DNA from: Acidobacteriota bacterium
Lineage (GTDB): Bacteria; Acidobacteriota; Terriglobia; Terriglobales; Acidobacteriaceae
Reading direction: 5' to 3'
Assembly (NCBI GenBank): GCA_021836865.1
Contig: JAKBHH010000003.1
Coordinates: 26,024 to 90,023 of the forward strand
Length of the DNA stretch: 64,000 nt
Numbering within the stretch: position 1 is the first letter of the stretch; each line of letters begins with the position of its first letter. Positions 60,648 to 63,864 of this stretch are shown here, piece by piece. A program made the position numbers and the translations under genes. The notes beneath the pieces were generated by a model. That model was not told the DNA's origin. It saw nothing but the letters and a program-made list of their open reading frames with translations, and did not search any database.

Positions 60648-61820
60648 TTACCGAGCGGATCGATCACGGAGGATTCGAAACGGGCGCACGACCAGATACA
60701 GCGGCGCGAGCCAGCCCGGTAGCGGCAGAAAGGCACGGTCTCGCTCGTTCGGTCTAAGAAAGTTGAGTGAGAGAATGAGGCGCATGCGGTCATATGTATC
60801 AAGGAGCTGCACGTTGTAAGGAATGCGACCGCTCGGAGTAGTGCCCGGAGCGCTAAAAAGGTTCAATTGAATGTGGCGCACCAGGTTCATGACGATCCTG
60901 TCTCGTTCAAAGCGGCTCAGCACGAAGGCGGGCACGGCTGCGCCAGTGAAGCGATGCGCGAGCAACACACCAAGTGCAAGAGGTCTTCCAAGTCCCTGCC
61001 GACGGGCTTCGCGGAGGGTGCGGTCCCAGTCCAGATCGGGGCAGGAGGCGATGACCTGCGCGACATCGAGAATCCAGATCATGCGCGACCAGATATGCTT
61101 GCTGCCATGCATGCAGAGGACGAGCAAGGTGGTCTCGGGACCCATGTCGGGAATCTTGGCGCCGGCGAGCATCGCGAAGCGTCGGCTGGGCCAGACCCAA
61201 TCCAGGCCGAGATTGCGCCTGAACCGCGGCTGGGTGAGCTCAAGACGCCAGCGGAGTTCAATGATCAGGCCGTCGGACCCTCGCTCGAAATGATATTCGA
61301 AGTAGTCCGGTGCTTCGGGCGTTCCGTCATCGAGGGCCATCGTCTTGAGATCGAAGCCGCAGCTGCGCAGCAGTGCCGTTGCGCGCAGCAGGTCGCAATA
61401 CTGGATAAGGATGTCGAGGTCGCCCGCGGGCCTGAGTGAAGGGTCACCATAGACGGAGGCTCCCAGGACGACACCCTTGAAGGGCATTGCGGTAATGCCA
61501 TGCTGCTCGAACAGGCTGAGGGTGCGAATCAGCTCCGCGGCGTTGCTTAGGGTTTGGATGGTGTTGCGGTTGAACTCAAGTTGTAGGTGGGCATGGGCGG
61601 CGGGGGGTATGGATACTCCGGACTGGTTGAGACGGTGAAATAATAGGGGAGCCATTCCGTGCTCGCGCGCGAGCTGGATAAGTTCATCCCAGTTCTCGAT
61701 GCTGGAAGCAAGGCGCTGGAGGGCCTCGGTGGCGTCCAAATGGGGCTGTGCGATCGCGATCAGGAGGTTTGAGGCGTTGTCATGCACTGTGGGAAGGCTC
61801 TCGATTCCTTCTGGCGTCAT
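60648..61820 (-). CDS. Nucleotidyltransferase family protein (PF14907-like)
   Basis: 'HGITAMPFKGVVLGASVYGDPSLRPAGDLDILIQYCDLLRATALLRSCGF'; helical C-terminus; internal Met start at 61820 inferred. Confidence 0.88.
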   Translation of the reverse strand: MTPEGIESLPTVHDNASNLLIAIAQPHLDATEALQRLASSIENWDELIQLAREHGMAPLLFHRLNQSGVSIPPAAHAHLQLEFNRNTIQTLSNAAELIRTLSLFEQHGITAMPFKGVVLGASVYGDPSLRPAGDLDILIQYCDLLRATALLRSCGFDLKTMALDDGTPEAPDYFEYHFERGSDGLIIELRWRLELTQPRFRRNLGLDWVWPSRRFAMLAGAKIPDMGPETTLLVLCMHGSKHIWSRMIWILDVAQVIASCPDLDWDRTLREARRQGLGRPLALGVLLAHRFTGAAVPAFVLSRFERDRIVMNLVRHIQLNLFSAPGTTPSGRIPYNVQLLDTYDRMRLILSLNFLRPNERDRAFLPLPGWLAPLYLVVRPFRILRDRSAR

Positions 61821-62390
61821 AGTTGCGAATGCGATGCCCACCGAGACGGAAGGCCGCCCCAGCGCGGGGTGCAATGTGCCGAATGAGAGGCGATGCTGCG
61901 ACCCAACTTTGGCTCAGCCGGGTGGAGGGCGCGAAAGCGATCATCCGTAATCTGAAGCACAACGATCACCCATCACCGATGCAGCCGGCGCGGTCCAGCC
62001 AGCAGCAATCGATGTCCCAGATGGAATGGCACCAGTATACCTTCGCGATGCGCGCGCGACCGCCGCGAAATGGAAAACGCGCCCGGGATGGGCGGCCGCT
62101 CTGCATTTCGGACGGCGCGCGACGGATGCAGCAGGTCATGGAAGTCAGGGAATCAAGATAAGTAAGAAGGTTACGCGTGCGGGGTGACAGTCTGCAGGGA
62201 CCTGAAAGGGCAGATGGTTGCATTGGGGCTTACATCGAAAGTACCCTGCATGTCTTGTTACCAGAAGTGCTTAAGGCATTACTAAATACTTGAAAATTAT
62301 AGATATCGCTCCTAACAAGGGCGCGGTATACTTCAACGCAGTCAGGGTTACAAGGGTTAGAAAAGACTCAACGCAAAAGGAGAGAACACG

Positions 62391-62834
62391 ATGCAAGTAG
62401 AGCGTACGAATACGGGTGATCTGGTCGTAAATGCGCTTCCAGATGGATCCAAAGTGATCGTTGACTCCAGGAACGACAAAGTCTTCGCGCTCAACGCGAC
62501 GGCCGGTGCGGCCTGGGATGCCTGCAGCAGTACGACAACCCTGTCCGAGGTGACAGCCAATATGAAGCGGACGCTGAATACCGGAGTGACCGAAGATCTT
62601 GCTGAGCAGGCCATCTTAAGCCTGCAGACGCAGAATCTCGTGACCGCTTCGGGCGCATCGGCGGGTACTTCGCGTCGCCAGGTGCTGGCTACCTTGGGCG
62701 CAATTGCACTTCCGCTGGTGGTCTCGATGACGATGTCGGACCAGAAGGCCTATGCGGGCGGTGCAATGTCACAGTCTACTTCCTACGACCGGCCCGGCCC
62801 GGTAGTCAGCAGGAATAACGGCCCCAGCTACTAA
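62391..62834 (+). CDS. PqqD-like domain fused to internal twin-arginine/hydrophobic segment and short Ser/Tyr/Pro/Asn-rich tail
   Basis: N-terminal 'VVNALPDGSKVIVDSRNDKVFALNATAGAAWDACSSTTTLSEVTANM' PqqD-like; 'SRRQVLATLGAIALPLVVSMTM'; tail 'GGAMSQSTSYDRPGPVVSRNNGPSY'; AAGGAG RBS upstream. Confidence 0.85.
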   Translation: MQVERTNTGDLVVNALPDGSKVIVDSRNDKVFALNATAGAAWDACSSTTTLSEVTANMKRTLNTGVTEDLAEQAILSLQTQNLVTASGASAGTSRRQVLATLGAIALPLVVSMTMSDQKAYAGGAMSQSTSYDRPGPVVSRNNGPSY

Positions 62835-63057: not shown

Positions 63058-63864
63058 ATGCCGGAACCCCATGTTTTGAGGATTTGCGCCTATGGGTGCA
63101 ATCTCCAGATTGAAACTGCAACAAGCACCATGTTAGAGGCCGCGGAGCGGTATGTGCTGCCGACGCTTCCCCGGACGCATGCCTTCACCGGGGCGCCTCA
63201 TTGCCTGGCTCGCATCGAAGAAGCGGACGGCGGATACGACCTGATTGCAGATGGCATCTCGTGTGCCTTTTCTCCAACAGCTACATCGATGATGCAATTT
63301 CTGATTCGGGTGCTGGATGATGCGGTCATTCGCAATCTACGCAACCTATACGCAGTCCATGCCGGGACGGTCGTGTGGAATGGGAGGGCAATCCTGTTGC
63401 CGGGCATGTCGCATGCTGGCAAGTCCTCGCTGGTGGTAGAGCTGCTGCGCAGGGGAGCGACCTACTACTCAGATGAGTATGCCTTGATTGATTCCAGAGG
63501 ACAGATTCATCCCTACCCGAGGCCTGTGCTGGTCCGCAATGGAAGGGCGTTTCAGCAGCCAGTGCTGCCGGATGAATGGCAGGCGCCGGTGGGACGCGAA
63601 CCTGTCACAGCCGGTTGGATCTTTCTGGTGAACTACCGCGCCGGTGGGGCCTGGAAGGTCGAGCCGATGGAACAAAGCGAGGCGGTGTTTGCGCTACTGA
63701 AGAACACACCCCATGTTTTGGCGGAGTCGCATGAATTGCTGAGCTTTTTTCATCGAGCAGTGCTGGGAGTGAAGGGATTTTCCGGCGAACGGAGCGAGGC
63801 GGGCGAAGCCGCGGAGCGCATCCTGGAACTCGTTGATACACCAGGGTCGGGCGCGATGCGGTGA
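63058..63864 (+). CDS. HPr kinase/phosphorylase-like protein
   Basis: 'LYAVHAGTVVWNGRAILLPGMSHAGKSSLVVELLRRGATYYSDEYALIDSRGQIHPYPRP': P-loop GMSHAGKSS and an HPrK-like SDE motif. Confidence 0.88.
   Translation: MPEPHVLRICAYGCNLQIETATSTMLEAAERYVLPTLPRTHAFTGAPHCLARIEEADGGYDLIADGISCAFSPTATSMMQFLIRVLDDAVIRNLRNLYAVHAGTVVWNGRAILLPGMSHAGKSSLVVELLRRGATYYSDEYALIDSRGQIHPYPRPVLVRNGRAFQQPVLPDEWQAPVGREPVTAGWIFLVNYRAGGAWKVEPMEQSEAVFALLKNTPHVLAESHELLSFFHRAVLGVKGFSGERSEAGEAAERILELVDTPGSGAMR

Follow-up and report, generated by a model that had tools for sequence, protein, structure and literature searches.

Is the protein encoded at positions 62391-62834 (plus strand) of the 64,000-nucleotide stretch of acidobacterial DNA analysed here (the window) a peptide precursor with a recognition element of its own? 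The question arises from the layout of this protein, P0001, which comprises 147 amino acids and whose open reading frame runs from ATG to TAA, preceded, as read from the sequence, by a Shine-Dalgarno-like AAGGAG (62377-62382, plus strand) 8 nt 5' of the start codon. In the translation, an RRE/PqqD-like domain is followed by a linker, the segment SRRQVLATLGAIALPLVVSMTMSDQKAYA, the residues GGAMS and the terminal stretch QSTSYDRPGPVVSRNNGPSY. The intact frame, the AAGGAG, a match to PF05402 and a confidently modelled RRE bear out the open reading frame and the three-part architecture given in a preliminary description of the gene. The strings quoted there, SRRQVLATLG and AIALPLVVSM, are indeed present; the quotation was not contiguous, however, in that the nine residues TMSDQKAYA between VVSM and GGAMSQ had been omitted, and these contain a basic residue and the AxA site. 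Scans for promoters and terminators at the gene gave nothing informative. The final base of the window is the end of the contig, and the genome (3.98 Mb, 192 contigs) is about 96% complete.

With regard to the RRE (residues 1-87; 62391-62651, plus strand), the Pfam model PF05402 (PqqD) matches residues 22-73 of P0001 with 26.8 bits against a curated cut-off of 23.4, and at E-values up to 0.1 all 22 close and all 34 distant members give a PqqD match. Structure prediction (AlphaFold2 with 22 sequences) yielded block pLDDT values of 87-94 for residues 1-80 and 84 for residues 81-90, followed by 55 for residues 91-100, 64 for residues 101-110, 84 for residues 111-120 and about 60 for the tail. When residues 1-89 were compared with solved structures, the top matches mostly stemmed from RRE-bearing proteins, i.e., MibB (Z 8.3), NisB, TbiB1 with leader (8.2), MccB (7.9) and TigE (7.8), with the PbtF RRE and PqqD (5.2) lower in the list; Z values near 8 are moderate, and unrelated winged helices also occur among the matches. 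According to the model, residues 1-89 are a winged-helix fold of the RRE kind, for which leader binding is a putative function. Searches by sequence for solved structures of the family, of the neighbouring kinase and of the neighbouring transferase returned no credible relative. A role as PqqD in PQQ biosynthesis was rejected (TIGR03859, 11.6 bits against a cut-off of 46).

What the RRE might bind was approached from the genome and from the model. P0001 is the only PqqD-domain protein found in the genome, about 96% complete as it is. The small open reading frames and the DNA of the two intergenic regions beside the gene are without match in other loci, and a separate small precursor next to the gene was rejected because the intergenic small open reading frames are not conserved across loci. 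The model assigns residues 110-114 to a strand; since all other strands belong to the RRE and are its only possible partners, part of the signal segment appears to be docked on the RRE, as judged from the secondary-structure string and not from coordinates. Recognition by the RRE of its own segment is only hinted at by this strand.

Relatives of P0001 were detected in 19 of 149 related genomes, namely the window's own, 15 more of the genus and three from other families of the class. Among the named genomes, P0001 alone as a query gave no match; an alignment as query recovered 24 loci, and the named relatives all belong to the Acidobacteriota, including Occallatibacter savannae AB23, Edaphobacter lichenicola X5P2 and Acidobacterium sp. 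S8. A profile supplemented with three distant members found matches in 100 of the 396 genomes searched in the phylum; of the weaker ones, many are confined to the PqqD part. The fetched loci provided 65 full-length sequences, 29 of the window's type (close relatives) and 36 of a wider type that mostly stem from other classes. One further gene (L066:6126-6532) is interrupted by an ambiguous stretch, with X in the translation, that is probably an assembly gap and not a broken gene. Weakly similar PqqD-family proteins are also encoded on Halobacterium salinarum plasmids, e.g., at NC_002608.1:208449-208739, the similarity reaching the RR region (query residues 7-106).

Homologues lacking the twin-arginine segment would have spoken against the architecture as first described. 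R95 and R96 are, however, present in 65 of 65 full-length relatives, and because they are kept at the same place while the preceding linker and the following tail vary, the pair is more than a chance occurrence. The RR/hydrophobic/basic/AxA segment (residues 94-122; 62670-62756, plus strand) is in fact the most conserved part of the protein: mean pairwise identity among the 29 close relatives, which are not independent of each other and have short tails, amounts to 0.57 for the RRE, 0.19 for the linker (residues 88-93; 62652-62669, plus strand; low model confidence), 0.63 for RR-AxA, 0.40 for the xxAxS motif (residues 123-127; 62757-62771, plus strand) and 0.18 for the tail (residues 128-147 and stop; 62772-62834, plus strand). 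Invariant in this set are N35, R95, R96, A106, P108, V110, A120 and S127; A122 is kept in 27 of 29. Ratios of dN/dS, for which the same reservations hold and in some pairs dS is near saturation, are 0.01-0.08 for RR-AxA in 10 of 12 close pairs (the exceptions, 0.26 and 0.81, being pairs of tandem copies), 0.06-0.32 for the RRE in pairs allowing an estimate and 0.15-0.47 for the tail where estimable, the tail also having a higher pN than the other parts.

This combination, in which RRE and RR-AxA are conserved and the tail varies, is the one expected of a conserved leader followed by a loosely constrained core. One protein thus combines a domain of the leader-binding type with an RR/hydrophobic segment and a variable tail, as proposed at the outset and as would suit a precursor equipped with its own recognition element. 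Whether the tail is conserved had been left to an alignment of homologues, which shows it to be variable (18% identity against 57% for the RRE) except for the Ser127 of close relatives. RR-AxA is conserved beyond what is usual for signal peptides, which suggests another or a further role; the segment may serve recognition, either in addition to export or in its place.

The segment itself resembles an export signal. S or T mostly stands directly before RR in the relatives, and a basic residue precedes AxA in 28 of 29 close relatives vs. 4 of 36 wider-type members. A basic residue at this place is known to discourage Sec. Three features make Tat a more plausible route than Sec: RR occurs throughout, S/T mostly precedes it and close relatives have the basic residue, the last of these being an argument that fails in the wider type. 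The model TIGR01409 (TAT_signal_seq) does not match P0001 but scores 21.3 bits against a cut-off of 16.7 with a distant relative (L019), and at E-values up to 0.1 it finds eight of the 34 distant and two of the 22 close members. The genome encodes TatC and four proteins matching S26 signal peptidases. The twin arginines are residues 95 and 96, behind the RRE, and the signal is not N-terminal; a position behind some 93 residues and a folded domain is unusual for a Tat signal. As far as sequence can tell, SRRQVLATLGAIALPLVVSMTMSDQKAYA may be regarded as an internal Tat-like signal and a possible RRE-bound leader.

Behind this segment, Ser127 (codon 62769-62771), the last residue of the xxAxS motif, is present in 29 of 29 close relatives and, by analogy with the LPP and Bsf systems described below, is the probable kinase site. 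Earlier emphasis was on a tail rich in Ser/Thr/Tyr and ending in NNGPSY; that ending is not conserved, and the residue kept in every close relative is Ser127. If cleavage after A122 is assumed, Ser127 becomes position 5 and not 3, which speaks against it as the site, and the Ser/Thr of many wider-type members position 2 or 3. Tandem copies, four in L039, three in L107 and two in other loci, differ from each other in the tail. The 29 tails of the window's type are Pro-rich, His/Asp-rich or plain and contain no, one or two Cys in 17, 3 and 9 members, respectively. Eight tails, noted for the window (62751-62831) and eight close relatives, have a [RHG]Px[AP]x[VI][SP][KRH] motif (RPxAxV-like) in common and otherwise vary. 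YDRP in the tail of P0001 was considered as a [Y/W]xxP leader motif and dismissed, since these eight tails do not keep the aromatic residue.

Tails of the wider type contain an even number of Cys after the signal in all 36 cases (six in 24, eight in 7, ten in 3 and none in 2). Disulfides are therefore favoured and hence a location outside the cytoplasm. The Cys spacings are of many different kinds. In 27 of 33 tails, the residue directly before the first Cys is Ser or Thr, vs. a background of 0.24; the p-value of this difference ignores relatedness. Preceded by an RRE and RR segment of the same kind, several Cys-rich tails show a knottin-like C-x6-C-x5-CC-x3-C-x4-C arrangement, and a few match knottin-type Pfam models, e.g., UPF0506 and Omega-toxin; a spacing held in common is uninformative on activity. 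Tails of this appearance are located at L074:1456-1938, L083:1438-1902 and in other wider-type loci.

Two genes accompany that of P0001 and had gone unmentioned in the preliminary description, as had the Cys-rich tails of the relatives. Downstream, 63058-63864 (plus strand) encodes an HprK-like kinase of 268 amino acids that reaches E=2e-15 with TIGR04352 (HprK_rel_A), i.e., 56.5 bits against a cut-off of 200. Its model (mean pLDDT 92.6) matches PEPCK (E 3e-7) and HprK/P (E 4e-4), and the kinase is, by its predicted structure, of the HprK/PEPCK fold. Compared with the catalytic His, the P-loop Lys and the Asp-Asp pair of peptide kinases like BsfK, H101, K122 and D139 are invariant, but D-E takes the place of D-D. 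The second gene (60648-61874, minus strand; putative TTG start) encodes a PF14907 (NTP_transf_5) nucleotidyltransferase of 408 amino acids (187 bits, cut-off 31.2). Among 49 loci, some of which are cut by contig ends, the kinase lies within 2.5 kb of the gene in 39, PF14907 in 40 and both in 33; for the ten loci without a detected kinase, missing sequence accounts for only some. The same triad is found on a plasmid of Gemmatirosa kalamazoonensis (Gemmatimonadota).

In other classes, further neighbours include UDP-GlcNAc 2-epimerase, glycosyltransferases, Wzy_C, Poly_export and TPR proteins, and in Occallatibacter savannae glycosyltransferases and PMT_2 lie near the gene; the open reading frames beside the gene in the window include no polysaccharide genes. 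The locus gene lists show no protease or transporter conserved beside the gene. A Peptidase_C25 (gingipain-type) protein adjoins the triad at L102:2537-5602, the only one of its cluster that was scanned, and the same protein cluster occurs in L103, L105 and L118. Secreted-looking repeat proteins of one cluster with a shared ESTPSNTTTVTVP-like end domain flank the triad in several close relatives (L028:6641-7744, L028:11246-14113, L029:6790-8760, L030:13578-14516, L034:6899-8368 and L035:5042-6043).

The explanation that best draws together the RRE fold, the conserved RR-AxA, the variable tail with its fixed Ser, the linked kinase and transferase genes and the even Cys counts is that P0001 is the precursor of an exported peptide with its own RRE in cis, the kinase acting on Ser127 and the tail being exported and released. 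We regard this account in its entirety as evenly poised. The steps that we infer, i.e., recruitment in cis, phosphorylation, Tat use and cleavage, together with a part in polysaccharide or envelope processes, would be arranged as follows. The RRE would first act in the cytoplasm, guiding the HprK-like kinase to the beginning of the tail and perhaps doing the same for the PF14907 nucleotidyltransferase. There, Ser127 would receive a phosphate and possibly further groups; in relatives from other classes, the residue concerned would be the Ser/Thr immediately preceding the first Cys. Export of the tail by way of the RR/hydrophobic/AxA segment would follow, most likely via Tat, and a signal peptidase would free the tail after A122, the RRE staying behind. 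Taken singly, the precursor-type architecture appears highly probable, export of the tail likely and its release by signal peptidase rather probable, and for action of the kinase on Ser127 or the equivalent Ser/Thr we see balanced chances.

The hydrophobic segment could also be an uncleaved N-in/C-out anchor of a membrane-bound adaptor. In this reading, kinase and transferase would be brought to the membrane by the RRE to work on the envelope or on polysaccharide, and the tail would serve as periplasmic tether or sensor. The frequent polysaccharide genes in the loci of relatives agree with this, as does the single hydrophobic segment, whose strong conservation would suit a helix with partners. 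However, AxA and the fixed residues behind it resemble a cleavage region, Pro-rich, His/Asp-rich and Cys-rich tails fit a released core better than a tether, and polysaccharide genes do not lie beside the gene in the window; we consider such an anchor unlikely. The low dN/dS of RR-AxA in most pairs (0.01-0.08) would also be in line with a leader that the RRE binds in cis, a dedicated protease and exporter handling the core without Tat. P108 and V110 are reminiscent of the Pxx portion of the lasso/LPP leader motif [Y/W]xxPx[L/V/I/F/A], N35 is invariant like the Asn by which LppB holds the leader Pro, and the modelled strand 110-114 points the same way. On the other hand, the aromatic residue of the motif is absent, the gene lists provide neither a conserved protease nor a transporter, and a leader has no need of RR and AxA, which makes this reading distinctly unlikely. 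The segment could serve as both leader and export signal.

An ordinary PqqD-type chaperone with a dispensable C-terminal extension that serves an unlinked peptide would conform to the habit of PqqD domains, which mostly work in trans, and to the variability of the tail. We hold it to be very improbable: the extension includes the segment with the highest conservation, the tail is under purifying selection where this can be estimated and keeps its fixed Ser, and tandem copies duplicate domain and tail together with no separate precursor nearby. Because domain, internal export signal-like segment and variable tail are fused in one protein encoded beside a kinase gene, P0001 probably gives rise to a secreted peptide that bears a chemical tag and belongs to an as yet uncatalogued type. 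A literature search, weak in that subscription journals lay mostly outside its coverage, found no description of a fusion of PqqD with a twin-arginine segment or of an RRE with a precursor.

Among known systems, HPr-rel-A (kinase TIGR04352, PqqD protein TIGR04353) likewise has an HprK-related kinase beside a PqqD-family protein; TIGR04353 (74 positions), however, spans the domain only, without RR segment and tail. Membership was rejected, with the kinase at 56.5 vs. 200 bits, P0001 unlisted for TIGR04353 and the best relative at 27.6 vs. 35. With Tat signal peptides (TIGR01409, PF10518), P0001 shares S/T-R-R, the hydrophobic region and AxA, and close relatives also the basic residue before AxA; it differs in that the segment follows a folded domain of about 90 residues and that no model matches P0001 itself. 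In the Bsf lasso peptide system of Bradymonas sediminis, BsfK phosphorylates Ser3 of BsfA and the RRE BsfB1 speeds the reaction (PMC10368454). An HprK-like kinase and a nucleotidyltransferase gene are present there as in the P0001 locus, but RRE and precursor are separate and lasso peptidase B2 and cyclase C are involved. PF13471 (B2-type leader peptidase) has no match in the about 96% complete genome, and a lasso cluster was rejected on this basis. Pseudomycoidin PsmK and PsmN (PMC9266682) also combine an HprK-like kinase with a nucleotidyltransferase; there, phosphate and hexose are placed on Ser, PsmN having been linked to the hexose on the phosphoserine (PMC9266682). Pseudomycoidin differs in being a lasso peptide modified at its C-terminal Ser and in its separate RRE.

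The closest parallels are offered by the linear polyphosphorylated peptides (LPP) of the lpp cluster of Paenibacillus alginolyticus (PMC13381572). In that system, the linear precursor works together with three further proteins, namely a discrete RRE, an HprK-like kinase and an NTP transferase. LppK phosphorylates Ser3 (AQS) of the linear core and an SpI-type signal peptidase frees the core; such clusters often lie within capsular polysaccharide loci and have been reported only from Bacillota (PMC13381572). LPP and P0001 loci both encode an RRE, an HprK-like kinase, an NTP transferase and a linear precursor that is conserved in its N-terminal part and variable at its C-terminus; both contain between one and several precursors, and a setting in polysaccharide loci is a further common trait in the case of relatives of P0001. 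The AQS phosphoserine near the start of the LPP core resembles the AxS of P0001, and release of signal peptidase type would be shared if the scheme proposed here applies. In contrast, the LPP leader is short and contains a YxxP motif, and the cluster provides its own SpI-like peptidase (LppS) as well as an MsbA-like exporter; a YxxPxV-type motif does not occur in the conserved part of the P0001 family, YDRP being present only in the tail of P0001. Above all, the RRE of LPP is a separate protein, whereas in P0001 RRE and tail are one.

Tentatively, and with somewhat less than even confidence, we see here a new class of ribosomal peptides spread across the Acidobacteriota and at least one Gemmatimonadota plasmid, with a built-in recognition element, a phosphorylated core possibly linked to sugar or polysaccharide, internal twin-arginine export and cores ranging from Pro-rich to disulfide-rich and knottin-like. 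If true, poorly studied soil bacteria would possess a phylum-wide set of secreted, probably phosphorylated peptides, and both the export of a C-terminal tail by a signal behind a folded domain and the role of HprK-like kinases and PF14907 enzymes beside polysaccharide loci would become testable. Genome mining keyed to a separate precursor gene would miss such systems. Leader recognition, export signal and core would be united in one gene, whereas in systems of the LPP, Bsf and paeninodin type they are distributed over separate genes or missing.
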